Source: Phycisphaerae bacterium (lineage in GTDB: Bacteria > Planctomycetota > Phycisphaerae > UBA1845 > Fen-1342). From it: a DNA stretch of 64,000 nucleotides. Of the stretch, positions 25,550 to 36,960 are shown piece after piece. The notes below the pieces were generated by a model. That model did no database searches, had not been told where the DNA came from, and worked only from the letters and a program-made list of their open reading frames with translations. The stretch is taken from NCBI GenBank assembly GCA_017999985.1, contig JAGNKU010000004.1, forward strand, positions 124,001 through 188,000, given 5' to 3'. Position 1 is the stretch's first letter. Each line of letters opens with the position of its first letter. A program made the translations under genes and the position numbers.

Positions 25550-25791
25550 GGCCTCACTCCGCATCCGCTGGGGCACCGGTCACCGGCCACCGCCGCCTGT
25601 CTGATAAGCCGGATCGCCGCCGGTCGCAAGCGGGTCACGGCCGAAACCGCCGGTGGCCTGGAAATCTGCATCGCGTCCGCCCGAATTCTCCATGCGGCGC
25701 AGTTGGCCCGCGGCGTGTGGCCCGGGCGCGTTCCGGAAACGGTGCGTTTTTCTAATTCCACTACCCGTTGTATGGATTACACTTACACCTG

Positions 25792-26211
25792 ATGGAAACG
25801 ATCGGCGGCGGTGGCGGCGGCCTGCTCGGGCGGCTGGGCGAAAGGGTGCTCGGGTACATTGCACTCGGGCTCATCGTCCTCGCCGGCGTGGCCTTGTGGC
25901 GCATGGGACCGGAGGGCCGCGGCGCGATCTGGAGCGGCATCTGGCGCACGGCGGTGTGGATCATCATCGCCGTCGGCCTGCCGTGGGGCGCGCGGCTGTT
26001 CATCAAGCGGATCCTGGAGGTCGGCTCGAATTGGGCCGGCGTGATCCTGCTGGTCGCGTTGGGCGTGGTGGACCTGGTGGCCGGGCTGATCCTGATGGGC
26101 GGCTGGCCCACGGGCGGCTGGGGCTGGGCGGCGGCGCTCGCAGCGCTGGCGCTGGCCGTGTCGTATAATTACCTGGTGACGGAGTATCTGTCGGAGCAAG
26201 CCGGCGGATGA
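25792..26211 (+). CDS. hypothetical membrane protein ahead of the kinase
   Basis: A 139-residue integral membrane protein. After a Gly-rich start (METIGGGGGGLLGRLGERVL) there are four hydrophobic segments (YIALGLIVLAGVALW, TAVWIIIAVGLPWG, GVILLVALGVVDLVAGLIL, WAAALAALALAVSYNYLV). No Shine-Dalgarno sequence is evident and the leader is AT-rich. It lies 19 nt before the protein kinase gene and heads the plus-strand run that includes the ESCRT-like genes, so it may be the first gene of that transcript. No family recognised. Confidence 0.6.
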   Translation: METIGGGGGGLLGRLGERVLGYIALGLIVLAGVALWRMGPEGRGAIWSGIWRTAVWIIIAVGLPWGARLFIKRILEVGSNWAGVILLVALGVVDLVAGLILMGGWPTGGWGWAAALAALALAVSYNYLVTEYLSEQAGG

Positions 26212-26230
26212 GGGGTTGGCGAAGGGACCG

Positions 26231-27307
26231 ATGAACACGAAGTACCAACCGGGCGCGCGAGTCAGCGAGTACGTACTCGAGGAGTGCGTGGGAGCCGGTG
26301 CGTTCGGCGAGGTCTGGCGCGCCCGGCACCACATCTGGGAGAACGAGCGCGTCGCGGTGAAGGTGCCGACCGAGCCGGAGTACGTCCGCTACCTGCAGCG
26401 CGAGGGCGTTGTCGTCCACGGCCTGCGGCACCCGAACATTGTGCGCGTACTGGGCCTGGATCCCTACGCTGAAATCCCCTACCTGGTCATGGAACTGGTC
26501 AGCGGCCCGTCGCTGCGCGACGTGCTGAACGAGCATCCGCAGGGCCTGCCGCTGCCGACGGTCAGCGTCATTCTCCGCGGTGTGCTGCGCGCCATGACGG
26601 CGGCCCACGAGGCCCACATCATTCACCGCGACCTGAAGCCGGGTAATGTGCTGCTGGATCTCGACGAACGGCCGCTGGCGGCGTTGGGCGTCGACGACGT
26701 GAAGGTCGGCGATTTCGGACTCGGCTTCGGCAATGCCGACGCGCTGCGCTCCATGGTCGTGCAGTCCGCGTCGATCGCGCGCACCGACGAGAGCGCCGTA
26801 CTGGCCGGCACGCTGGCGTACATGGCACCGGAAGTTCGCGACGAGGGCCGCACGCCCGACCCGCGGGCCGACCTGTTCGCGATCGGCGTAATCCTGTTCG
26901 AGCTGCTGACGGGCAAACGGCCGGCGGGCGCGGAAGTGCCGAGCACACTGCGGGGCGACACGCCGGCGGCGCTGGACGAAGTGTTTCGCCGGCTCTACGC
27001 GCGTTATGACAACCGCTACGAGAGTGCGAATGCCGTGCTGCGCGACCTGGACGCACGGCTGGAGCCCGGTCGCACCGCGCGGACGCCGGGCGTGCCGCCA
27101 CCACCGCCGCCGCCGACCGCGGGAGGCACGTATCTGCTCTGCCCGGCGTGCAATCGGCCGGTGGAGCGTGAGGACCAGTTCTGCACGCACTGTGGATTGC
27201 AACTGTCGAAATCGGTGCGGCGCTGCCTGAGCTGCGGCGGCTACCCGGGGCCGCATGACAATTACTGCATCTTCTGTGGGACGGCACTGGCGTCGTCCCG
27301 GGAGTAA
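26231..27307 (+). CDS. Ser/Thr protein kinase with two C-terminal zinc ribbons
   Basis: A 358-residue Hanks-type kinase. Kinase landmarks are the glycine loop GAGAFGEVWRA, the ATP-binding Lys in VAVKVP, IIHRDLKPGNVLL (catalytic loop), GDFGLGF (Mg loop) and YMAPEVRDEG, all intact. After a Pro-rich linker (GVPPPPPPPTAGG) come two zinc ribbons: CPACNRPVEREDQFCTHCG and CLSCGGYPGPHDNYCIFCG. There is no transmembrane helix, unlike most bacterial PASTA-type kinases, so it is probably soluble or recruited by its ribbons. It is tightly followed by a zinc-ribbon membrane protein and the ESCRT-III-like genes, which are possible substrates. Confidence 0.9.
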   Translation: MNTKYQPGARVSEYVLEECVGAGAFGEVWRARHHIWENERVAVKVPTEPEYVRYLQREGVVVHGLRHPNIVRVLGLDPYAEIPYLVMELVSGPSLRDVLNEHPQGLPLPTVSVILRGVLRAMTAAHEAHIIHRDLKPGNVLLDLDERPLAALGVDDVKVGDFGLGFGNADALRSMVVQSASIARTDESAVLAGTLAYMAPEVRDEGRTPDPRADLFAIGVILFELLTGKRPAGAEVPSTLRGDTPAALDEVFRRLYARYDNRYESANAVLRDLDARLEPGRTARTPGVPPPPPPPTAGGTYLLCPACNRPVEREDQFCTHCGLQLSKSVRRCLSCGGYPGPHDNYCIFCGTALASSRE

Positions 27308-27313
27308 CGCGCC

Positions 27314-27604
27314 ATGTGCCTGGCCGACGCGGGAATCACGTTCGTCTGGGTCGGCGGGATCCTGCTCGTCGGGTTCGTCGGCTTCTTCGTGATGATCGCG
27401 GCCGCGGTCGGCCGCGTGCTGCGGTTCATTGTCCGGTCGGTACTGGGACGCGGCGCGCGGTCGGCGCTTCCGACGCTGGCCGGGACGGCGGAGCGGGTCT
27501 GCGGGCACCCGCGCTGCGGGCACCTGAACCCGCGCGATGCCCGCTATTGTGCCCGGTGCGGCAGCGCGCTCGGGGCAACTGGGAATGTAGACGACTATGG
27601 ATGA
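27314..27604 (+). CDS. single-pass membrane protein with zinc ribbon
   Basis: A 96-residue protein with one strong N-terminal membrane helix (VWVGGILLVGFVGFFVMIAA), a basic segment (RVLRFIVRSVLGRGARS) and a C-terminal zinc ribbon (CGHPRCGHLNPRDARYCARC). It begins 6 nt after the kinase gene and its 3' end overlaps the next gene by 8 nt. The ribbon resembles those on the kinase, which suggests the two share a partner or assemble together. It may anchor the system at the membrane. Function unknown. Confidence 0.72.
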   Translation: MCLADAGITFVWVGGILLVGFVGFFVMIAAAVGRVLRFIVRSVLGRGARSALPTLAGTAERVCGHPRCGHLNPRDARYCARCGSALGATGNVDDYG

Positions 27605-29030
27605 GCGCAGCCGGCATCGCCAGTTCGAAGACCAGTTCCTCCGGCAGTTGCGCGCCCGGGCGCAGGCCCTGCTGCGCCGCACGCTGCCGGCGGACCAGTT
27701 TCAACTCGAGACATTGCCGGATGGCATCGACACCGTGCGGGCGACGCTGACGCGACTGGAGCGTTTCGACCGCGCCCTCATCGAGCAATTGCCGGGGACA
27801 CGGGCGGTGCAGATGCGCTTTCAGCAGCGCGTCTTCGGGCCGTTTTACTCGACGGTGGCGCGGCTGCGCGCGCAGACACTCGCCCCGCTGGAGGCCCTGG
27901 TCGCCAACGAGCCGGCCGGTCCGGTCGGACGCGAGCAGGTGCTGGACGCGCTCGCGCGCTACGAGCTGCTGCCACGCCGCGAGCGGCCCAAGCTGGCGGC
28001 GTTCGCGAGCGCGACCGGGTTCACGCCGGAGGCAAAGGCCCTCGTGCATTCCGGCAATACGCCGACGCTGGTCCTGCTGGGCGGGCGGCCCGACGGCGGC
28101 TGGGATGTCGAGCTGCCGGCTGCGCTGCGGCGCGGGGCGTGGGGCAAGTTGTTCGAGCTGGAGTCGCAGGACGAGCGGCTGAAGCGGCTGCTGTCGCACC
28201 TGGAGAAGAGCCGCGGGCAGCTCGAATCACGCGGCATCTCGGTGCCGGAGCTGGCGGAGCAGCTCGGGTTGGAGCGGGAGGCGACGGAAGCGCTGGTGCG
28301 GCAGGCGTGCCGGCATGATTCGCGCTTGCTAACCGTCGTGCATGAAGGCACGATTCACGTGTGTCGCAGCCCCCTGGGAGAAGAGAGCAACACGATGAGC
28401 CTGCGAAGCTGGATCCGGAAATTGCTGCGGCTGAAGCCGACGGTGGGCGAGCAGGTGCGGGCCCTCACGGCGCAGCGCGTGCAGCTCGAACAGCAGCGGC
28501 ATGAGGTCGACCAGCGCATGACCGGGCTGGAGACCGAGGAACGCGAGTGCGTCGAGAAGGGCGCCGCCGCCAAGACCGACGTCGAACGCAAGCAGCTCGC
28601 GGGCAAGCTGATGCGCGTCCGGCGTGACCTTCGGCGGGTGCGGGCGCAGGCCAACGTCTATACGCAGCAGATCGACATCCTGGGCACGCATATCCACCAT
28701 CTCACGCTCGCCGAGCAGGGCAAGCGGATTGAGCTGCCGAAGGCCGAGGAGCTGACGCGCGAGGCCGCCGAGGCCGAAGGCATGATGGCCGAACTGGCGG
28801 CGAACGCGGACCTGGCGAACAGCATCGAGGTCGGCGCGCAAACGCCGCTGATGGCGGAAGAAGAAGCCGCCATCCTGGAAGAATTCAAACAGGCAGCGGG
28901 CCAGCAGGCCGCGGCGCCGGAAGCGGCCAGCGGCGTCAAGGCGCCTGCGGAGCGTGCCAGCGGCCGTGAGGCGGCGTCCACTCCGCCGGTGCCAACGGAC
29001 AAGAGCAAGGCCCGGCCGGAGATGACCTGA
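27597..29030 (+). CDS. winged-helix region fused to an ESCRT-III-like helical domain
   Basis: A 477-residue cytosolic protein with two parts. The N-terminal 265 residues include a helical region and, near 215-262, a winged-helix-like unit (SVPELAEQLGLEREATEALV, then SRLLTVVHEGTIHV). Residue 267 begins MSLRSWIRKLLRLKP, an amphipathic basic helix. A long charged helical hairpin follows (VRALTAQRVQLEQQRHEVDQ, VERKQLAGKLMRVRRDLRRV), then an acidic helix (AEEEAAILEEFKQAAG) and an Ala/Pro tail. The second part resembles the two neighbouring helical proteins in plan. A winged helix before ESCRT-III recalls CHMP7. This is an architectural reading, not a search result. It overlaps the previous gene by 8 nt. 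Confidence 0.72.
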   Translation: MDERSRHRQFEDQFLRQLRARAQALLRRTLPADQFQLETLPDGIDTVRATLTRLERFDRALIEQLPGTRAVQMRFQQRVFGPFYSTVARLRAQTLAPLEALVANEPAGPVGREQVLDALARYELLPRRERPKLAAFASATGFTPEAKALVHSGNTPTLVLLGGRPDGGWDVELPAALRRGAWGKLFELESQDERLKRLLSHLEKSRGQLESRGISVPELAEQLGLEREATEALVRQACRHDSRLLTVVHEGTIHVCRSPLGEESNTMSLRSWIRKLLRLKPTVGEQVRALTAQRVQLEQQRHEVDQRMTGLETEERECVEKGAAAKTDVERKQLAGKLMRVRRDLRRVRAQANVYTQQIDILGTHIHHLTLAEQGKRIELPKAEELTREAAEAEGMMAELAANADLANSIEVGAQTPLMAEEEAAILEEFKQAAGQQAAAPEAASGVKAPAERASGREAASTPPVPTDKSKARPEMT

Positions 29031-29033
29031 ACG

Positions 29034-29073
29034 CGTGGGCGCGTGGGCACGTGGGAAGGTGAGAACGTGGGAA
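29034..29073. repeat. octamer tandem array, CGTGGGAA type
   Basis: Five 8-bp units in a row: CGTGGGCG, CGTGGGCA, CGTGGGAA, GGTGAGAA, CGTGGGAA, starting 4 nt after the stop of the winged-helix/ESCRT-III-like gene. The array differs in sequence from the GGTGATAA arrays 700 bp downstream but has the same 8-bp period and a similar copy number. Confidence 0.75.
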
Positions 29074-29094
29074 CGGGCCGCGCAGCGCGATCTG

Positions 29095-29122
29095 GCTGAA
29101 TGCTGAACGCTGAAAGCTGAGA
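29095..29122. repeat. heptamer tandem array, GCTGAAA type
   Basis: Four 7-bp units GCTGAAT, GCTGAAC, GCTGAAA, GCTGAGA, ending 8 nt before the ATG of the next gene (29131). A two-unit version with the same borders (TCTGGCTGAA at the left, GCTTCT at the right) occurs at 46214-46237, so this is a dispersed repeat with variable copy number. Its position overlaps the place of a ribosome-binding site. Confidence 0.75.
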
Positions 29123-29130
29123 GCTTCTTC

Positions 29131-29730
29131 ATGAACTTCTTCGAGTGGCTCACGACGCGGCGGAAGACGCTGGCGACCATGAACGCGGCCGAGTTGCGGG
29201 CGCAGGAGATGCTCCTCGACAACGAGCGCAACCGCATGCAGGCCAAGATTCGGCAGCTCGCCGGCGAGAAGCAGAAGATCATCGAGCAGGGTGCGAAGGA
29301 GAAGACGCCGGAGATGCGGCGGACGTTCGCCCAGCAGTTCGACCTGTTGCACACCGAGCAGATGATGGTCGCGCGGCAGCTCAACATCCGCAGCAAGGAG
29401 ATCATCACCGTCTCGCGGCTGCGCATGCTGCGCGAGCATGCCCCGACGGCCGCGCTGGCCGGCGGACGCGTGACGATCCGCGACGCGGACCTGGCGCTGA
29501 TCGCCCGGCTGATCGAGAACGACCAGATCACGAGCGAGATGTACAACGAGCGGCTGAATGAGATCCTCGCGCTGGGCCAGGCCGCGGACGAGGCCGCGAC
29601 GGGCCTCTCGCCGGCGAGCCAGGAGCTGATGAAGGTCTGGAACGACATGGACGCGGGCCTGATCAAGACGACGGGTGAAGCGTTCGACGAAGCGGAGAAA
29701 CGCGTGCGCGAGCGCGGAGCGGAAGCGTAA
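29131..29730 (+). CDS. ESCRT-III-like all-helical protein
   Basis: A 199-residue, highly charged, all-helical protein without signal peptide. It begins MNFFEWLTTRRK, an amphipathic basic start, followed by a long helical hairpin (about 15-105: QEMLLDNERNRMQAKIRQLA, RRTFAQQFDLLHTEQMMVAR). After a short break (TAALAGG) come shorter acidic helices (LIENDQITSEMYNERLNEIL, WNDMDAGLIKTTGEAFDEAE). Size, charge order and helix layout match the ESCRT-III/Snf7 plan: basic hairpin first, acidic C-terminal helices last. No PspA-type N-terminus is seen. It lies between two similar genes, so the three are likely paralogues that co-assemble. Confidence 0.65.
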   Translation: MNFFEWLTTRRKTLATMNAAELRAQEMLLDNERNRMQAKIRQLAGEKQKIIEQGAKEKTPEMRRTFAQQFDLLHTEQMMVARQLNIRSKEIITVSRLRMLREHAPTAALAGGRVTIRDADLALIARLIENDQITSEMYNERLNEILALGQAADEAATGLSPASQELMKVWNDMDAGLIKTTGEAFDEAEKRVRERGAEA

Positions 29731-29732
29731 GC

Positions 29733-29764
29733 GGTGATAAGGTGATAACGTGATAAGGTGATAA
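29733..29764. repeat. left arm: four GGTGATAA octamers
   Basis: Four exact-length 8-bp units GGTGATAA, GGTGATAA, CGTGATAA, GGTGATAA just after the stop of the ESCRT-III-like gene at 29730 and just before the four-helix-bundle gene. The reverse complement of this array occurs at 30232-30263 on the other side of that gene. Confidence 0.88.
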
Positions 29765-29776
29765 GGGAGGTCGCGC

Positions 29777-30214
29777 GTGGGGGCGAAGCGATTCGAAGAT
29801 CTCAAGGTGTGGCAAGCCGCGCGTGAGTTGACGCGCGGCGTATATCGTGCGGCGGACACGCAGCAGCTCGGGAAGGATTGGGCCTTGGCGAATCAGATGA
29901 AACGCGCGGCGGTCAGCATTGGCAGCAACATCGCCGAGGGCTTCGAGCGCGGCACGCGGAAGCAGCAGATCGAAGCCTGCTACACGGCCAAGGGTTCAGC
30001 CGGCGAGCTGCGCAGTCAGGTGATCACTGCGTCAGACGTCGGTCTCATCGACAAGCGGGCATACGAGTGGTTGCTCGAGCGCTGTGAGTCGTGTTCCCGT
30101 CAGCTCCAGGCGTACATAGCCCACTTGCGACGGACGCGCGACGGCTGTCCCGGCCCCAAGTACCTCGAGCCGAGCGGGGACGGCACAAAAGGAGCCGGCG
30201 ATGAATGGGCATGA
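29777..30214 (+). CDS. four-helix-bundle protein (23S rRNA intervening-sequence protein family)
   Basis: A 145-residue protein of the S23/IVP four-helix-bundle family: KRFEDLKVWQAARELTRGVY, the hallmark MKRAAVSIGSNIAEGFERGT, KQQIEACYTAKGSAGELRSQ and LLERCESCSRQLQAYIAHLR. Family members are often encoded inside 23S rRNA intervening sequences; molecular role unresolved. It starts at GTG with GGGAGG 6-7 nt ahead. It interrupts the row of ESCRT-III-like genes and is flanked by inverted GGTGATAA arrays, which marks it as a likely insertion and not a functional part of that system. Confidence 0.92.
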   Translation: MGAKRFEDLKVWQAARELTRGVYRAADTQQLGKDWALANQMKRAAVSIGSNIAEGFERGTRKQQIEACYTAKGSAGELRSQVITASDVGLIDKRAYEWLLERCESCSRQLQAYIAHLRRTRDGCPGPKYLEPSGDGTKGAGDEWA

Positions 30215-30231
30215 AAGGCGCCCAGCGCACC

Positions 30232-30263
30232 TTATCACGTTATCACCTTATCACTTTATCACC
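30232..30263. repeat. right arm: four inverted octamers (TTATCACC type)
   Basis: Units TTATCACG, TTATCACC, TTATCACT, TTATCACC, the reverse complement of the left array at 29733-29764 with two unit-level differences. It ends 23 nt before the start of the next ESCRT-III-like gene. Confidence 0.88.
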
Positions 30264-30286
30264 CTCGCGCAAGTCGGGAGCTGACT

Positions 30287-30895
30287 ATGGGTTTGTTCAA
30301 GTCGAAGGACGAACGCCGCATCGAGCGGGACATCAAGATTCGGCAGGGCATCCGGCGCATCGAAAAGTCCATCGCCGAGCAAAACAAGTTCACCGACGAG
30401 TTCGTCAAGAACGCCCGCCAGGCCAAGCAAATCGGCGACATGGCGAGCTACCAGTTCATCCGCAACTCACTCAAGAAGACGGCGACCATCAAGAAGCTGC
30501 TCGAACGGCAGCTTCTGGCGGTGAAAAACGCCCTGCTGATCAAGCGGCAGGCCGAGGCGGCCGCGGACTTCGCCGGTGCAATGAAAACCATGGCCGCCGA
30601 GGTGAGCCGGCTGTACGGCGACACGGACCTGGCGAAGACGCAGCTGGACTGGGAGAAGGCCATGGCCCAGTCGCAGTCGATGGAAGAGCGCATGGCGATG
30701 TTCCTCGACGGCATGGAAGAGGGCGCGGCGGCGGACGTCTCGCGCGCCCCGGCGGAGGCGATCAGCGACGAGGAGATCGACCGGATGATCGCGGCCGAGG
30801 AGCAGGTCGACCAGGCCCGCGAGGCGCAGCAGATGAGCGCGCTGCGGGCGGAGCTGAACGCCCTGAAGGACCCGGGGCAGAAGGAGACGAAGTAG
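30287..30895 (+). CDS. ESCRT-III-like protein with MIM1-like C-terminal tail
   Basis: A 202-residue all-helical protein whose layout is close to Vps2/CHMP2. It has a short start (MGLFKSKDERRIERDIKIRQ) and a basic hairpin (about 15-85: GIRRIEKSIAEQNKFTDEFV, NSLKKTATIKKLLERQLLAV). A middle helix follows (AAADFAGAMKTMAAEVSRLY), then acidic helices (EKAMAQSQSMEERMAMFLDG, AEAISDEEIDRMIAAEEQVD). The end, ALRAELNALKD (about 185-195), has the L-x3-L-x2-L-basic spacing of a MIM1 motif (CHMP2A: LEERLKNLRRD), the ligand of Vps4 MIT domains. A Vps4-like ATPase with an MIT-like domain is encoded 1.8 kb downstream. Similarity was judged by eye. Confidence 0.72.
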   Translation: MGLFKSKDERRIERDIKIRQGIRRIEKSIAEQNKFTDEFVKNARQAKQIGDMASYQFIRNSLKKTATIKKLLERQLLAVKNALLIKRQAEAAADFAGAMKTMAAEVSRLYGDTDLAKTQLDWEKAMAQSQSMEERMAMFLDGMEEGAAADVSRAPAEAISDEEIDRMIAAEEQVDQAREAQQMSALRAELNALKDPGQKETK

Positions 30896-30991
30896 GCTAT
30901 GTCGCTCCCGTGGATCGAGCTGCATGGTCAACGTTCGCCGCGTGAGCGGATGTGGCGTGGGCGTCCGCTTTCGCCGGTAACGGAGGTACGC

Positions 30992-31570
30992 ATGTTCTTC
31001 AATGATCAGGGACCGGTGCCGGAGACTTTTCGCAAGCTGCGCGAGCGGTTGGCGCAGGCTGGGTTGCCGCACATTTTCATGGGTGCCGTGGCGTTGAATG
31101 CCCATGACTACCGGCGGGCGTCCGAAGACGTTGATTTGTGCATGCGGGCGGAGACGCTGGAGGCGTTTCGCAAGCTGTTCGTCGGCACGGTGTATCAGCA
31201 GGTGGCTGGCCGACCGCGGAAGTTCTTCGATCCGCAGACGCAAGTGACCTTCGACATCCTCGTCGCGGGCGAGATCGCCGGCAATACGCGCAAGCAGCGC
31301 CAGGTGCGCTTTCCGGACCCCTCCGAAGCGGAAACGCACCGCGACACGCCGGTCCCGAGCCTGGCGCGCCTGATCGAGCTAAAGCTGGTCACTTGGCGCT
31401 ACAAGGACTGGGGCGATGTGGTCGAGCTGATTCGCATCCACGACCTGGGCGAGTCCTTTGCGGATCAGCTCAACCCGATTGTCCGTTCCGCCTACGTGCA
31501 GTGCTACGACCAGAAAGTCGAAGAGGACCGCTACAACCCGGAGATCCGCGATCCGCCGCCGGCCGATTAG
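30992..31570 (+). CDS. nucleotidyltransferase-like protein
   Basis: A 192-residue protein with a minimal nucleotidyltransferase-type core: IFMGAVALNAHDYRRASEDV with the Asp-Val-Asp-Leu end of a GAxALxxH...SxDVDL pattern, then VTFDILVAGEIAG (third acidic position) and SLARLIELKLVTWRYKDWGD, as in AbiEii/MNT-like domains. The start at 30992 has GGAGG 6 nt upstream and matches the domain start. It is flanked on the left by the ESCRT-III-like gene and on the right by a decayed copy of that gene's 3' end, so it was probably inserted or arose in a duplication. It may act alone. Confidence 0.75.
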   Translation: MFFNDQGPVPETFRKLRERLAQAGLPHIFMGAVALNAHDYRRASEDVDLCMRAETLEAFRKLFVGTVYQQVAGRPRKFFDPQTQVTFDILVAGEIAGNTRKQRQVRFPDPSEAETHRDTPVPSLARLIELKLVTWRYKDWGDVVELIRIHDLGESFADQLNPIVRSAYVQCYDQKVEEDRYNPEIRDPPPAD

Positions 31571-31603
31571 GCGGGCCAGATGCAAGCACTAGACGAACGG
31601 ACG

Positions 31604-31660
31604 GCGCTCCGGGCGGAGTTGAACGCCTAAAAATACGCAGGGCAGAAAGAGACGAAGCGG
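31604..31660 (+). pseudogene. decayed duplicate of the 3' end of the ESCRT-III-like gene
   Basis: These 57 bases align without gaps to 30839-30895, the last 57 bases of the ESCRT-III-like gene, with about 12 mismatches. The frame still reads ALRAELNA but then meets TAA. The copy covers exactly the MIM1-like tail region and lies just past the nucleotidyltransferase gene, giving a direct repeat around it. It is either the remnant of a second paralogue or the trace of the insertion event. Confidence 0.75.
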
Positions 31661-31703
31661 CGGGCTTGAACGCCAGAAAGCGCGCGATGGTAGGACCTTG
31701 CGG

Positions 31704-32564
31704 ATGAGTTGCCGAGCCGTATGGCCACTTGGGACCGTCCTCGCGCTCGCGGCCGTATCCCTCGGCGTCGCGTGCCAGCGGAGTTCGGATCGTGCGCCGG
31801 CGCGTGAGCTGCCGCCCCGTCCGTTGCGCGTGCTGACGTGGAATGTCCAGAAGGGCGAACACGGACTCGATGCTCTTATTGCTGAGCTGCGCCAGGCTGA
31901 CGCCGACATCATCTGCCTGCAGGAAGTGACGGAGCCGCGTGGCAAAGCCGCAGTTCCCAACCAGTCTGAACAGCTGGGCAAAGCGCTGGGCATGTATGTC
32001 TACTCGCACGGCGACCGCTTGGACGACGAGCGCAACCAGGCGCTTGCGATCCTGAGCCGCGTGCCGCTGCTGGAGACGAAAGCGCTGTGCGCGCCGGACA
32101 CGACGCGCAACTACGCAGTCACCGCGGTCGCGCCCTGGCGCGACCTGCGCCTGCGCATCGCGTGCGTCCATCTGGCCGGCACATGGAAAGCACAGTGGGA
32201 GCACGTTCAGGAAACGAGCGCGGCGCGCCTCCGTGACTGGACCGCTCTACGCGCGGCGGCGAACCAGTGGACCGGACCGACGATCATTGCCGGCGACTTC
32301 AACACGCTGCCCGGTGCATCGCAATTTGCCGAGCTCGGCGATCGGCTACGCATCGTCAGCGGCACGGAGCCGACGTTCCCCAGCGCAACACCGGCAATGT
32401 GCCTCGACTATGTGCTGTCGAGCACGGAGTTGTCCTGCACCAAGGTCACGCGCGTCGCGACCGCCGCGTCTGACCACCAGCCGGTGCTGGTAGAATTCGA
32501 CCTGACCGACGCCGCCACAACGAAGCCAACCACGCAACCGAGGCAGGCTGAACGTGAGCCCTGA
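31704..32564 (+). CDS. endonuclease/exonuclease/phosphatase-family lipoprotein
   Basis: A 286-residue secreted or membrane-anchored EEP-fold hydrolase. The N-terminus has a signal with lipobox-like LGVAC. The domain has all main motifs: VLTWNVQKGE, ADIICLQEVTE, IACVHLAG, IIAGDFNTLPG, MCLDYVLSS and ASDHQPVLVEF. EEP enzymes cut phosphodiester or phosphomonoester bonds in DNA, phosphoinositides or sphingomyelin. Outside the cytosol, a phospholipid or secreted nucleic acid would be a natural target. It lies among the membrane-remodelling genes, 88 nt before the Vps4-like ATPase. Confidence 0.87.
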   Translation: MSCRAVWPLGTVLALAAVSLGVACQRSSDRAPARELPPRPLRVLTWNVQKGEHGLDALIAELRQADADIICLQEVTEPRGKAAVPNQSEQLGKALGMYVYSHGDRLDDERNQALAILSRVPLLETKALCAPDTTRNYAVTAVAPWRDLRLRIACVHLAGTWKAQWEHVQETSAARLRDWTALRAAANQWTGPTIIAGDFNTLPGASQFAELGDRLRIVSGTEPTFPSATPAMCLDYVLSSTELSCTKVTRVATAASDHQPVLVEFDLTDAATTKPTTQPRQAEREP

Positions 32565-32651
32565 GTACGAAACCTGTATTGCGCCGCGTGCGCTCGAACC
32601 GCCCCGCGGCGGTGATCTCAAACCGATGAACCGCAATTGAGCAGTGGAGCT

Positions 32652-33770
32652 ATGCCGGCCACCTTCGCCACCTTCCAGCGTCTGAAAGACAAAGGCCTCG
32701 CGGCCCTGCGGCAGGGCGACTATGTCGCCGCCAAGCCGTATCTCATCCAAGCCGCCGAGTGCATGATTGACATCTCCGAGGAGAACAAAGACCCCCGCCA
32801 ACGCGCCGAGCAGGAGGCCTACGCCAAGGAGCTGCTCGAACTCGCCAAGGACTGCGACCGGCGGGCGACGCGCGGCGGCGGCCCGCGCGGCGAACGCGTC
32901 CGCGAGGACGGCGACTCCGGCGCGAAAGCCGACGACTGGATCGTCCGCGAAAAGCCGAACGTGCGCTTCACCGACATCGCCGGCCTCGACGACGTCAAGG
33001 ACGAGATCGCCCTGAAGATGCTGTATCCGTTCCAGCACCCGGAGCTGGCCCAGCGCTACGGCATCAGCGTCGGCGGCGGCATGCTGCTCTTCGGCCCCCC
33101 GGGCACCGGCAAGACCATGTTCGCCAGGGCCATCGCCTGCGAGCTCGACGCGACCATGTTCGTCATCAGCCCGGCCCAGCTCATGAGCAAATGGGTCGGC
33201 GAGGCGGAGCAGAACGTCAAGAAACTCTTCGACGCCGCCAAGAGCGAGCAGAAATCCGTCATCTTCATGGACGAGGTCGAGGCCCTGGTGCCCCGCCGGC
33301 GGGAGAGCCAGTCCACGGTCATGACGCGCGTCGTGCCGCAGATCCTGCAGGAGATCGAGGGCTTCGACCGCAAGTCCGACCGGGCCCTGATGTTCCTCGG
33401 CGCGACCAACGAGCCCTGGAGCCTCGACCCGGCCATGCTGCGCCCGGGCCGCCTGGACGCGAAGATCTACGTCCCGTTGCCCGATGCGGAGGCGCGCTTC
33501 AAGCTGTTCGAGATCTACCTCGGCAAGCGCCCGCTGGACGACGACGTGGATTTCGCCAAGCTCGTCGAGGCCACCGACGGCTACAGCGGGGCCGACATCA
33601 AGGCCATCGCCGAGCGTTCCGCAAGTCGTCCGTTTTTAGAATCGGTGGCGGGGGCTCAGCCGCGTAACATAATGATGGCGGACGTGTTGGACGTGATCGC
33701 GCGCACGCCGGCATCGGTCAGCCGCAAGGACCTGGCGAAGTTCGACCAGTGGGCCGCGGAACAGGGTTAA
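32652..33770 (+). CDS. Vps4-like AAA ATPase with N-terminal MIT-like domain
   Basis: A 372-residue AAA ATPase. Residues 1-70 form a three-helix MIT-like domain (FQRLKDKGLAALRQGDYVAA, KPYLIQAAECMIDISEEN, EQEAYAKELLELAKDC). A charged linker follows. The AAA core begins FTDIAGLDDVKDEI. Walker A is GPPGTGKT (148-155), the pore loop SKWVGEAEQNVKKLF has Trp181, and Walker B is VIFMDEVEAL (Asp207-Glu208). Sensor and Arg-finger regions are FLGATNEPWSLDPAMLRPGR, then KIYVPLPDAEARFKLFEIYL and DGYSGADIKAIAE. Trp in the pore loop and the IYVPLP segment are hallmarks of the Vps4/katanin/spastin clade. Predicted role: extraction of the ESCRT-III-like polymers through their MIM-like tails. Confidence 0.85.
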   Translation: MPATFATFQRLKDKGLAALRQGDYVAAKPYLIQAAECMIDISEENKDPRQRAEQEAYAKELLELAKDCDRRATRGGGPRGERVREDGDSGAKADDWIVREKPNVRFTDIAGLDDVKDEIALKMLYPFQHPELAQRYGISVGGGMLLFGPPGTGKTMFARAIACELDATMFVISPAQLMSKWVGEAEQNVKKLFDAAKSEQKSVIFMDEVEALVPRRRESQSTVMTRVVPQILQEIEGFDRKSDRALMFLGATNEPWSLDPAMLRPGRLDAKIYVPLPDAEARFKLFEIYLGKRPLDDDVDFAKLVEATDGYSGADIKAIAERSASRPFLESVAGAQPRNIMMADVLDVIARTPASVSRKDLAKFDQWAAEQG

Positions 33771-33815
33771 GGCGCGCCCGGCGAAGTCGGGTGTGCCGCT
33801 GACGGAGGACTGAAC

Positions 33816-34037
33816 ATGCGATCGGTTGGGTGGGCGTACGCGTTGTGGGCGCTGTGCCTGGTCGCGGTGGCCGGTGTGCACCGCTTCTACCTCGGCAGGT
33901 ACATCACGGGCACGATCTGGTTCTTTACGTGGGGCGTGTTCGGGATCGGGTCGTTCATCGACCTGTTCCTGATCCCGGGCATGGTGGAGCAGAAGAACCG
34001 GCAACTGGTGGGCGCCGGAAGCTGGCAGATGCCGTAG
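33816..34037 (+). CDS. TM2-domain membrane protein
   Basis: A 73-residue protein with two membrane helices joined by the TM2 hallmark: YALWALCLVAVAGVHRFYLG, then TIWFFTWGVFGIGSFIDLFL ending in IP. The HRFYLGR turn and DLFLIPGMV segment are typical. TM2 proteins are small two-helix proteins often coupled to varied cytosolic partners. GGAGG lies 7 nt ahead. It sits 45 nt after the Vps4-like gene, and is probably a membrane component of the same locus. Confidence 0.9.
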   Translation: MRSVGWAYALWALCLVAVAGVHRFYLGRYITGTIWFFTWGVFGIGSFIDLFLIPGMVEQKNRQLVGAGSWQMP

Positions 34038-34062
34038 CTCGCCGCAGTCACGGAGCATGGGC

Positions 34063-35901
34063 ATGAGCCGCGACGTGTTAAAACGGCTGACCGATCCGCT
34101 GGTGGTCGCCCTGCGCTGCACGGGCGCGGACTGGCCACGCGGGCTGCTCGCGGAAACGCGCCTCCCGCCGGCGTGGCTCGCACTCGTCGTGCGCGCGGAT
34201 GGCCGCCGCCGTCTCGTCCCGGCCGGCGAAGACCCGCGCCCGGAGCGCGACGACACCGTCGTCCTCGTACGTCAGCATGCGCTCGCCATCCCCCTCACCG
34301 CGAACAATGTGCCCTCCGCGGATGGGCACCCCGTCAGCGTGGCCGGCGAGCTGATCGTGCAATGCGCCGCGCGCGACGACGAGCTGGCGGCGCTGCACAA
34401 GACGTTGCTGGCCGCCGATGAGCTGCACGTCGCGGACGTGGCCAGCGCCCTGCGTGACGCCGGCGCCCGCACGGCGATGCAGCAATTCATTCAAACGCAG
34501 CCGGCCGAGCGATTGGTGCATGCGGACCTCCGCGCGGAGCTGCTTGCCGCCCTGCGCACGGCCTTGCAGCGCTTCCTGTTCTCCGCCGGCCTGGTCGTCG
34601 AGCGCATCGGCAAACTCGAATTCACGAGCGCGAGCTTCACCCGGCACACCGCCCTGGAGCGCGACACGGCCCGTCGCATCAAGGAAATCGAAGCCCGGGG
34701 CGTTGTGGAGCGCGCCGCCCTCGCGGCCACGCAGCGCCGCCTGGGCGAACTCGGCGATATCCTGGCCAAACTCAAGGCCACCGCCGCCGCCGATGAGGGC
34801 CGGCAGTGGCGCGAATTGCTGCCAAGCCTCACGCCCAGCGAGCGCGGCCGACTGCTCGAAAGCCTGTGGCGACTCACGCCGGACCGCACCACCGCGGAGG
34901 CCCTGGTGGCCGTCGCCGGGCTGGAGTGCGTCTGGCTCGACCCCGCCGAGCCAGAGCGGATCGTCCGGCGGGTGACGCTCTCGGAGGAACTCGGCGGCCT
35001 GCGTTCGGTCGTGCATGATCCGAGCGGCGCCCTTTGGGTGGGTGCCGCGCGGGGTGTGTGGCGGCTGCGCGCCGGCGACGGTGCCGTGCTCGGCCACTAC
35101 GCCATTCCCGGCGACGATACGCCGCGCACGGGGATCAACGCGGCGGTGGCGCACGGCGGGCGCCTGTTCGCGACGCACTCGCAGCTCGGTGTGTGGTCGT
35201 GGAGCATCGATGATGCAGCGGATGTGGCCCCGCTATTGACGCCGGCGGGCGGCGTACCCAAGACCATCCGGGCCGTGACAGTGACGGAGCACGGCTGGAT
35301 CGTGCTGGCTGCGGACGAGTTCGTGCACGCATTCACCGCCGCCGGCGAGCGACTGTGGCAGAGCGGTCGCGCGGACGGGTCGATTCATTGTCTCGCACCG
35401 CTGGAAGGCCGGCTCTACGCCGGCACGGCGCGCGGGGCGTTGCAGCGCTGCGAGCTGGAACTGCCCGGCACGTGGCTGACGCTACACCGGGCACGCGCGG
35501 CCATTGAGACCGTGCAGGCCCGGCGGTGGGACGACCTGGTCGAACTGGTGATTCCGGCGGGCGCGGAGGGCGTGCATGGCGTCTACGCCGAGGAGGGCAT
35601 GGTCTCGCGCTTGCTCGAGGCGCCAGTGCCAGTGCGGCGCGTGTGGGCATGTGACGATGTGCTCGTGGCGCTCGCGGACCAGCGCGACCGGCTGATTGTG
35701 CTGAACGGGTCAATGCCGGCGCGGACGGGGCGGGAGGTACCGATCGCGCGGCTGCTAGGCCGGTCGGTGCACGATGCGTGTCTGGTTGTCCGGCACGCAG
35801 ACAGCGACGCAGCCAGACCCCCGAGCGGCGAGTGGGCCCGCGCAGCGGCGAGAAGTTGCCCAGCGACAGAGCCACGCACCCACGAAGGGAAGGACGCATG
35901 A
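34063..35901 (+). CDS. SPFH/band-7-like protein with C-terminal beta-propeller-like region
   Basis: A 612-residue protein. Residues about 60-200 look like an SPFH (stomatin/flotillin) domain: IPLTANNVPSADGHPVSVAG followed by LIVQC, a long helix with repeated Ala/Leu (LRAELLAALRTALQRFLFSA) and VVERIGKLEFTSASF. A helical stalk (RRIKEIEARGVVERAALAAT) leads to residues 290-590. That part shows repeated beta blades (VVHDPSGALWVGAARGVWRL, HGGRLFATHSQLGVWSWSI, LEGRLYAGTARGALQRCEL), as in WD/PQQ-type propellers. SPFH proteins scaffold membranes, which suits the locus. ATG 34063 has GGAG at a good distance; 34057 is too close. The last codons overlap deoC by 4 nt. Confidence 0.68.
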   Translation: MSRDVLKRLTDPLVVALRCTGADWPRGLLAETRLPPAWLALVVRADGRRRLVPAGEDPRPERDDTVVLVRQHALAIPLTANNVPSADGHPVSVAGELIVQCAARDDELAALHKTLLAADELHVADVASALRDAGARTAMQQFIQTQPAERLVHADLRAELLAALRTALQRFLFSAGLVVERIGKLEFTSASFTRHTALERDTARRIKEIEARGVVERAALAATQRRLGELGDILAKLKATAAADEGRQWRELLPSLTPSERGRLLESLWRLTPDRTTAEALVAVAGLECVWLDPAEPERIVRRVTLSEELGGLRSVVHDPSGALWVGAARGVWRLRAGDGAVLGHYAIPGDDTPRTGINAAVAHGGRLFATHSQLGVWSWSIDDAADVAPLLTPAGGVPKTIRAVTVTEHGWIVLAADEFVHAFTAAGERLWQSGRADGSIHCLAPLEGRLYAGTARGALQRCELELPGTWLTLHRARAAIETVQARRWDDLVELVIPAGAEGVHGVYAEEGMVSRLLEAPVPVRRVWACDDVLVALADQRDRLIVLNGSMPARTGREVPIARLLGRSVHDACLVVRHADSDAARPPSGEWARAAARSCPATEPRTHEGKDA

Positions 35902-36584
35902 ACGCAGTGCCGAATACCCGGGCCGAATTGGCGCGCGTGATCGATCACACGTTGCTCAAGGCCGAGACCACGCGGGCACAGGTCGAGAAGCTGTGCGACG
36001 AATGCCTGGAATACGGGTTTTTCGCCGCGTGCGTGAACCCCGTGTGGGTACCGCTGTGTGCCGATCGGCTCGCGCACGGCGACACCGTCGTCGCGAGTGT
36101 CGTGGGTTTTCCGCTCGGCGCGAACACGAGTGACATCAAGGCGTATGAGGCCCTGACCGCGCTGGAGAACGGCGCCCGCGAGGTTGATCTGGTGGTCAAC
36201 CTCGGCGCGCTCATCGCCGGCGATCGGACCGCCGTCACGCGCGACATCGCCGCCGTCGTCGAGTCGGTCAAGCGCGCCGACCCCGCAGCGCTGGTGAAGG
36301 TCATCCTCGAAACTCGGGCGCTCACCGATGAGCAGATCATCGCTGGCTGCCGCTGCGCTGCGGAGGCCCAGGCCGATTTCGTCAAGACGTCGACCGGCTT
36401 TCATCCCGCCGGCGGCGCCACCGTCGAGCATGTGGCCCTCATGCGCAAGCACGCCGCCCCGCTGAAAGTGAAAGCCTCGGGCGGCATCCGCGACCTGGCA
36501 ACGGCACGGGCCATGCTGGCGGCCGGCGCCGACCGGCTGGGCGTCTCCGCCGGTGTGGCGATCGTGCGTGAGCTGGAGGGCTGA
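35898..36584 (+). CDS. deoC: deoxyribose-phosphate aldolase
   Basis: Cleaves 2-deoxyribose 5-phosphate to acetaldehyde and glyceraldehyde 3-phosphate in nucleoside salvage. The 228-residue class I aldolase has LARVIDHTLLKAETTRAQVE, VASVVGFPLGANTSDIKAYE, EVDLVVNLGALIAGD, VKVILETRALTDEQI and DFVKTSTGFHPAGGATVEHV with the Schiff-base Lys, then LKVKASGGIRDLATA. All residues expected are intact. The ATGA overlap with the SPFH-like gene suggests coupled translation. It is metabolically unrelated to the genes before it and may simply be at the end of the transcript. Confidence 0.96.
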   Translation: MNAVPNTRAELARVIDHTLLKAETTRAQVEKLCDECLEYGFFAACVNPVWVPLCADRLAHGDTVVASVVGFPLGANTSDIKAYEALTALENGAREVDLVVNLGALIAGDRTAVTRDIAAVVESVKRADPAALVKVILETRALTDEQIIAGCRCAAEAQADFVKTSTGFHPAGGATVEHVALMRKHAAPLKVKASGGIRDLATARAMLAAGADRLGVSAGVAIVRELEG

Positions 36585-36588
36585 GCCC

Positions 36589-36960
36589 ATGAACGGCGAG
36601 CGGCGGGCGCTGTCGTGCCCTCAATGCGGGTGGCAGATCACGCCACGCGGGCGCAGCGTGCCGCGTTTCTGCGCCGTGTGCGGGCAACCGCTGGCAGCAA
36701 CGCTGCCGAATTTCGCCGCGAGTTCGCCGATGCCGCGGCCTACGCCGCCGGGCGCCTCGGCGGCCTTCATTCTCGGCTTGTGTGGGATTGTGCCGGTCGT
36801 GGGGCTTGCGCTCGGGATAGTGGCGATGGTGCTGGGGGGCCGCGCGCTGCGGACCATCCGGACTTCCGGCGGTCAGCTCGGGGGCGAGGGTCTGGCCCGG
36901 GCCGGCATGATCATCGGCGGCTTCTGCGCGCTGCTCTGGATGATCGCGCTTTTCCGCTGA
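36589..36960 (+). CDS. zinc-ribbon and DUF4190 membrane protein
   Basis: A 123-residue protein: an N-terminal zinc ribbon (CPQCGWQITPRGRSVPRFCA, then CG) and a Pro-rich spacer. Two membrane helices follow (AAFILGLCGIVPVVGLALGI, MIIGGFCALLWMIALF) with the DUF4190 pattern GRALRTIRTSGGQLGGEGLA between them. It starts right after deoC. Ribbon-plus-membrane proteins recur in this window (16332, 27314), so this is a common building plan in the organism. Function unknown. Confidence 0.82.
   Translation: MNGERRALSCPQCGWQITPRGRSVPRFCAVCGQPLAATLPNFAASSPMPRPTPPGASAAFILGLCGIVPVVGLALGIVAMVLGGRALRTIRTSGGQLGGEGLARAGMIIGGFCALLWMIALFR

Follow-up and report, generated by a model that had tools for sequence, protein, structure and literature searches.

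The endosomal sorting complex required for transport III (ESCRT-III) forms a filament with which human cells cut and repair their membranes, and a Vps4-like motor is thought to disassemble it. Planctomycetota are known for unusual membranes and for the absence of FtsZ. Published surveys confine the pairing of ESCRT-III with Vps4 to archaea and eukaryotes and describe it as absent from bacteria, and a criterion for Vps4 proposed for these two groups (criterion ii of PMC10936438) is that it is encoded together with ESCRT-III. Archaeal ESCRT loci also carry Ser/Thr kinases, SPFH-coiled-coil proteins, zinc ribbons and WD40/PQQ propellers (PMC10936438), and two classes of ESCRT-III, A-type and B-type, have been defined for Asgard archaea and eukaryotes (PMC11804906). 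Bacterial Vps4-like ATPases without snf7, as well as some bacterial PspA/Snf7-AAA neighbourhoods, have been reported (PMC11237479). Here we describe a locus in a 64-kb stretch of a Phycisphaerae genome (contig JAGNKU010000004.1, positions 124,001 to 188,000; hereafter the window), in which three helical proteins, H1 (27597-29030), H2 (29131-29730) and H3 (30287-30895), and an AAA ATPase (32652-33770) are encoded in a row on the + strand. Comparison of sequences and predicted folds makes it likely that this locus encodes a bacterial ESCRT-III system, an ATP-driven membrane-remodelling machine. An earlier note on this DNA had suggested such a machine, and its reading frames were all recovered at their positions in the window. 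We found no report of a planctomycete ESCRT-III/Vps4 system in a literature search whose range excluded preprints and most subscription papers.

The strongest evidence comes from H3. An AlphaFold2 model built on a 33-sequence alignment has helices at residues 7-49, 52-110, 115-152 and 161-194, which follow the ESCRT-III plan of a long alpha1-alpha2 hairpin and shorter helices 3-5 after it, as the earlier note had envisaged. When the model was compared with the PDB by Foldseek, the top 22 matches all belonged to the ESCRT-III superfamily, the first unrelated protein appearing at rank 23. These matches include CHMP2A-CHMP3, Snf7, CHMP1B, IST1-CHMP1B, Shrub, Asgard ESCRT-IIIB, S. islandicus CdvB and Vipp1, the best being 7zcg, CHMP2A-CHMP3 (E 7e-3, prob 1.00). 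Additionally, we compared a profile of 131 H3 sequences with an ESCRT-III profile of ten human, yeast and fly proteins by HHalign. The comparison yielded 96.2% (P 2.2e-9, score 63.9) over 162 colinear columns running from the first residues to helix 5, a whole-domain match above all nulls (maximum of 20.1 for 100 column shuffles and 37.9 for 100 block shuffles; 16.0 for the reversed profile). The profile match to Snf7/CHMP proteins that had been forecast for the helical proteins was thus obtained for H3. Most of the ESCRT-III, MIT and Vps4 reference sequences were checked, the letters of human VPS4A/VPS4B, yeast Vps4 MIT and KATNA1 MIT lying outside the checked set: Snf7, CHMP2A 8-154, katanin and the AAA part of yeast Vps4 were verified against PDB chains, CHMP1A/2B/3/4B/5/6 were checked against Pfam Snf7, and CdvC by a 631-bit match. 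With the PDB-verified letters alone H3 matched ESCRT-III at P 1.4e-5, and a shallower initial ESCRT-III profile gave P 1e-3 only.

Of the Pfam families, Snf7 is also the one that most H3 members match (19/33, best E 6e-4), and H3 of the window aligns with it over its full length below threshold (residues 17-170 against 5-159 of 171). Searching the PDB sequences by hmmsearch gave no match with the H3 profile and one chance match with the H2 profile; here sequence search has almost no power by itself, because even the genuine pair of human CHMP2A and S. islandicus CdvB reaches only E 0.38 by phmmer. The basic-then-acidic order proposed for these proteins is borne out in H3, which carries a net charge of +12 over residues 1-100 and -12 over residues 101-202. 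HHalign prefers A-type ESCRT-III (Vps2/Vps24/CHMP1) for H3, with 95.8% against 1.7% for B-type. Near its C-terminus lies an amphipathic Leu motif, LRAELNALK (30842-30868, +), which is loosely similar to the MIT-interacting motif MIM1, and a relaxed form of the motif is present in 87/131 orthologues. On its modelled fold and its profile match, H3 is an ESCRT-III homologue with strong support.

The earlier note had given ESCRT-III identity to all three helical proteins. Besides H3, this holds with moderate support for the C-terminal domain of H1 (H1C; aa 265-477, 28389-29030, +) and for H2 only by way of H1C. H1C matched the ESCRT-III profile at 89% (P 2.2e-6) over 156 colinear columns, with a score of 46.5 against a null maximum of 33.7. 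H2 itself matched the ESCRT-III profile weakly, at 32%. H1C and H2, in turn, matched each other at 96% (P 4e-9), as expected of paralogues. The predicted structure of H2 contains the hairpin, and CdvB occupies Foldseek ranks 1, 2 and 7, but with E >= 0.45. The membership of H2 is therefore drawn mainly from H1C, since its direct match is weak and the CdvB hits stand at E 0.45. H1C prefers B-type ESCRT-III (82% against 8%), a preference carried by a short acidic stretch of 46 columns. A Pfam scan gave no family above threshold for H1, H2 or H3, nothing convincing among H1 members and no Snf7 match among H2 members. The N-terminal region of H1 (aa 1-264, 27597-28388, +) is conserved in relatives, with no ESCRT-III match by profile and no Pfam match. 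By inspection, aa ~205-258 look like a winged helix, which, if real, would recall CHMP7 and the archaeal winged-helix ESCRT proteins. H1C and H2 are probably of ESCRT-III type.

The locus itself is real and conserved, and forms an operon in many Planctomycetota. H3 orthologues with 50-85% identity occur in 40/150 genomes of the class; a phylum sample of 246 genomes added 46 more, and each genome gave a single match. Among 84,980 species genomes scanned there were 127 H3 relatives, the best 80 of which were used for the locus counts; all but one of these 80 are titled Planctomycetota, Phycisphaerae or similar planctomycete metagenome-assembled genomes. H3 was not found in viral contigs. Among the loci with enough flanking DNA, H1, H2 and the kinase gene lie 5' of H3 in 67/70, and 3' of H3 the ATPase follows in the same orientation in 49/63 and an SPFH-like gene in 45/63. 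The order kinase, H1, H2, H3, ATPase, SPFH/beta-propeller is thus kept in most loci, and the neighbourhood is conserved, as had been expected. One locus (L162; 9001-9603 and 10974) has a second, diverged H3-like copy with 46% identity, ~1.4 kb downstream.

The survey of Planctomycetota that the earlier note called for found H3 and the ATPase together: in the class sample each occurs in 40 genomes and both in 38. H2 is present in 41 class genomes, the 40 H3 genomes all among them. Family f10 of the class has its ATPase gene elsewhere in the genome and not beside H3. Even where the genes are unlinked, 82/86 sampled H3 genomes encode either the window-type ATPase or a second ATPase described below, AAA-2, and three of the four with neither (G055, G109, G248 and G351) are less than 90% complete.

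The window ATPase has the Walker motifs, the pore loop SKWVGEAE, NEPWxLD and IYVPLP, so that the pore-loop Trp and the IYVPLP segment seen earlier are indeed present. Its start is the ATG at 32652, and the open frame extends to a TTG at 32637. Pfam identified AAA (E 1.6e-39), AAA_lid_3 and Vps4_C in 32637-33770, the last above its cut-off at E 1.1e-5. Vps4_C is not decisive for Vps4 membership, because p97 carries it too. The ATPase begins with a putative three-helix MIT-like domain (32658-32876, +). HHalign matched this N-domain alone to MIT at 43% (P 2.4e-4). Other Planctomycetota have AAA-2, whose N-terminus is MIT-like and whose sensor region is of the RF type (mostly NRPWDLDPAVLSRFEKKILIPLPD). 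AAA-2 lies 5' of H3 in L168, L175, L178 and L181-L187; where genomes of the window's class were tested for it, neither profile search nor a DNA pattern found it. The two ATPases have N-domains homologous with one another (95.7%); pooled, these matched MIT at 85% (P 5.9e-6, 60/73 columns), a signal that partly overlaps TPR (24 columns). The earlier proposal of an MIT-like N-domain is thereby upheld to a moderate degree at the profile level. The sequence features suggest that the window ATPase probably acts like Vps4, and it is encoded with ESCRT-III genes, as PMC10936438 has it in criterion ii.

Several results weigh against an ESCRT-III/Vps4 system. The H3 model is of moderate quality, with a predicted local distance difference test (pLDDT) of 71.6 and a predicted template modelling score (pTM) of 0.47, and none of its Foldseek matches has E < 0.001. 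Its VIA-align Z of 7-8 is not above that of unrelated helical proteins, and the VIA-align rows fail to tell ESCRT-III from other helical proteins. H3 falls below the Pfam Snf7 gathering cut-off, and strict MIM1 was found in 0/131 orthologues; the C-terminal MIM motif of ESCRT-III varies and is not universal. For H1C, the match lost most of its significance when PDB-verified letters were used alone (P 0.014), so that the place of H1C and H2 among ESCRT-III proteins is probable but falls short of proof. The association of H3 with the ATPase in the class has a Fisher p of 1e-30, a figure that ignores shared ancestry. Moreover, the Pfam MIT model does not detect the N-domain of either ATPase, and the placement of the window ATPase inside the Vps4/katanin clade, as originally suggested, did not hold. 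In a small tree of 57 rows with few reference taxa, without spastin, Msp1, PAN or euryarchaeal Vps4, a clade of the window ATPase and other planctomycete AAA proteins is sister to the CdvC/Vps4/katanin/AAA-2 clade (98/90), within which AAA-2 is placed (96/88). The approximately unbiased (AU) test rejects joining the window ATPase to Vps4/katanin/CdvC (p 0.02) and to Cdc48 D2 (p 0.0015). We do not file it in the Vps4 clade, because the tree places it as a sister group and Pfam MIT goes undetected. Its sensor region reads RPGRLD, as in Cdc48, where CdvC and Vps4 have RRF. A ranking of PDB matches, biased to two-domain Cdc48 proteins, was replaced by the tree. Beside the window ATPase clade branch further planctomycete AAA proteins (L215, L216 and L217), whose sensor regions are of the NAPWHVDPAFRRPG type; these could represent the Vps4-like family of bacteria in the 2024 phage-shock paper.

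Most of the partner genes named earlier were recovered around this core. A Ser/Thr protein kinase with a C-terminal double zinc ribbon is encoded 5' of H1 (26216-27307, +; Pkinase E 3.9e-35, DZR E 8e-7), in agreement with the zinc-ribbon kinase described before. Downstream of the ATPase, 34057-35901 (+) encodes the SPFH-like protein, comprising an SPFH/Band_7 domain, a coiled coil and a C-terminal WD40/PQQ-like beta-propeller (PDB matches, E 4e-15); Band_7 is found in 7/18 orthologues (best E 5.5e-5) and is weak in the window protein. The zinc-ribbon membrane protein is likewise in place (36553-36960, +; Pfam zinc ribbon and DUF4190), its gene being seen in the closest relatives only. The supposed TM2 protein gave no TM2 match: 25768-26211 (+) encodes a small membrane protein of 147 aa without a Pfam family, and its orthologues lie 5' of the kinase in many loci, as the first gene of the row. 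Three further genes are probably incidental, and their presence differs from genome to genome: an IVP/S23 (23S-rRNA-intervening-sequence) protein gene (29777-30214; PF05635, E 6e-30), and, both named by inspection, a nucleotidyltransferase-like gene (30899-31570) and an EEP-type hydrolase gene (31698-32564). The first sits between H2 and H3 in many close relatives as it does here, and the second holds the same place, after H3 and before the ATPase, in several lineages (L094, L101, L114, L116 and L154). The likeness of the whole gene set to archaeal ESCRT loci is independent of the profile results and provides a useful contextual argument.

Homology, domain order, gene order and co-occurrence agree with the polymer-plus-disassembly machine of the earlier note, whose polymerisation, membrane binding and disassembly we infer. 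H1, H2 and H3 would attach to a membrane on its inner face and polymerise together, and their filaments would bend, constrict or seal it. In the ATPase, the MIT-like domain would then grip the acidic ESCRT-III tails, of which that of H3 ends in the LRAELNALK-type helix, and the ring would pull subunits through its Trp pore loop, so that they leave the filament and the filament turns over. The membrane site is probably marked or clustered by the SPFH/beta-propeller protein, with the zinc-ribbon kinase as the probable regulator of assembly. Candidate cellular jobs include division or fission, formation of vesicles or invaginations, and repair; a role in the internal membranes of planctomycetes, as the earlier note suggested, would be speculative.

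We regard as rather unlikely a more specific proposal, compatible with such a machine, that it replaces FtsZ in division, like Cdv in Sulfolobales. Archaeal ESCRT divides cells (PMC10936438), and an FtsZ/tubulin match occurs in only 6/150 class genomes, H3 being present in 0/6 of them; these matches are confined to two families of the class (f18 and f22). Against this, ~100/150 class genomes have neither FtsZ nor H3. FtsZ-less division can therefore do without the locus, and an FtsZ substitute is just one possibility.

It is improbable that the helical proteins are of the PspA/Vipp1 type, serving ordinary phage-shock-like membrane repair beside a passing AAA ATPase. PspA/Vipp1 belong to the ESCRT-III superfamily and are among the Foldseek matches of H3, and in bacteria SPFH proteins accompany PspA (PMC10936438). 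However, PspA from related genomes has no profile match to H3 (P 0.59) or H2 (P 0.51), in contrast to the match of H3 with eukaryotic ESCRT-III at P 2e-9; the known relation of PspA to ESCRT-III scores just 23.4 in the same comparison. The ATPase, moreover, co-occurs with H3, and PspA has a gene of its own at another place in the window genome (PspA_IM30, G000:C8:149024-149674). PspA is above cut-off in 6/41 close genomes only, the window genome included. Equally hard to sustain is a quality-control module of a Cdc48-like AAA unfoldase, helical adaptors and an SPFH scaffold without an ESCRT filament, whose logic would be comparable to HflKC-FtsH and which has the SPFH partner, the RPGRLD sensor and the Cdc48-type top PDB matches (inflated by two-domain sums) in its favour, and against it the AU test on Cdc48 D2, the ESCRT-III fold and profile of H3, and the presence of two ESCRT-III-type families together in the row.

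If the ESCRT-III reading is true, a conserved bacterial operon that joins ESCRT-III of the Snf7 branch to an AAA ATPase of the MIT type would alter the inferred history of ESCRT, and would offer bacteria in which to test membrane remodelling and division without FtsZ. Tentatively, the planctomycete system could be an ancient transfer, or a branch older than the split of bacteria and archaea. Among its closest known counterparts are the archaeal ESCRT/Cdv systems (CdvB with CdvC/Vps4; 'main' and Meth_adaptin loci, PMC10936438), in which ESCRT-III likewise stands beside an MIT-AAA ATPase and the partners include Ser/Thr kinase, SPFH-coiled-coil, zinc-ribbon and WD40/PQQ proteins. It differs from them in being bacterial, in an ATPase with RPGRLD outside the CdvC/Vps4 clade and in the large N-terminal region of H1, and no CdvA, ESCRT-I/II or ubiquitin genes were identified in the examined part of the window. 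Compared with ESCRT-III of eukaryotes and Asgard archaea, H3 appears nearer the A-type (Vps2, Vps24, CHMP1) and H1C nearer the B-type (Snf7, CHMP4-7), and H1, an N-terminal region followed by an ESCRT-III domain, is outwardly like CHMP7; the sequence distance of H1-H3 from these proteins is large. PspA/Vipp1/IM30 share with H3 a bacterial origin and the hairpin fold of the superfamily, whereas they have no profile match to H3 or H2, and PspA usually has no dedicated MIT-AAA ATPase. Finally, the VPS4-like AAA+ protein ACB74714.1 of other bacteria (mSystems 2024, PMC11237479) is a bacterial Vps4-like ATPase, as here; in that system snf7 is reported to have been displaced by an unrelated TPR-6TM gene, whereas in the planctomycete locus the ESCRT-III genes adjoin the ATPase.

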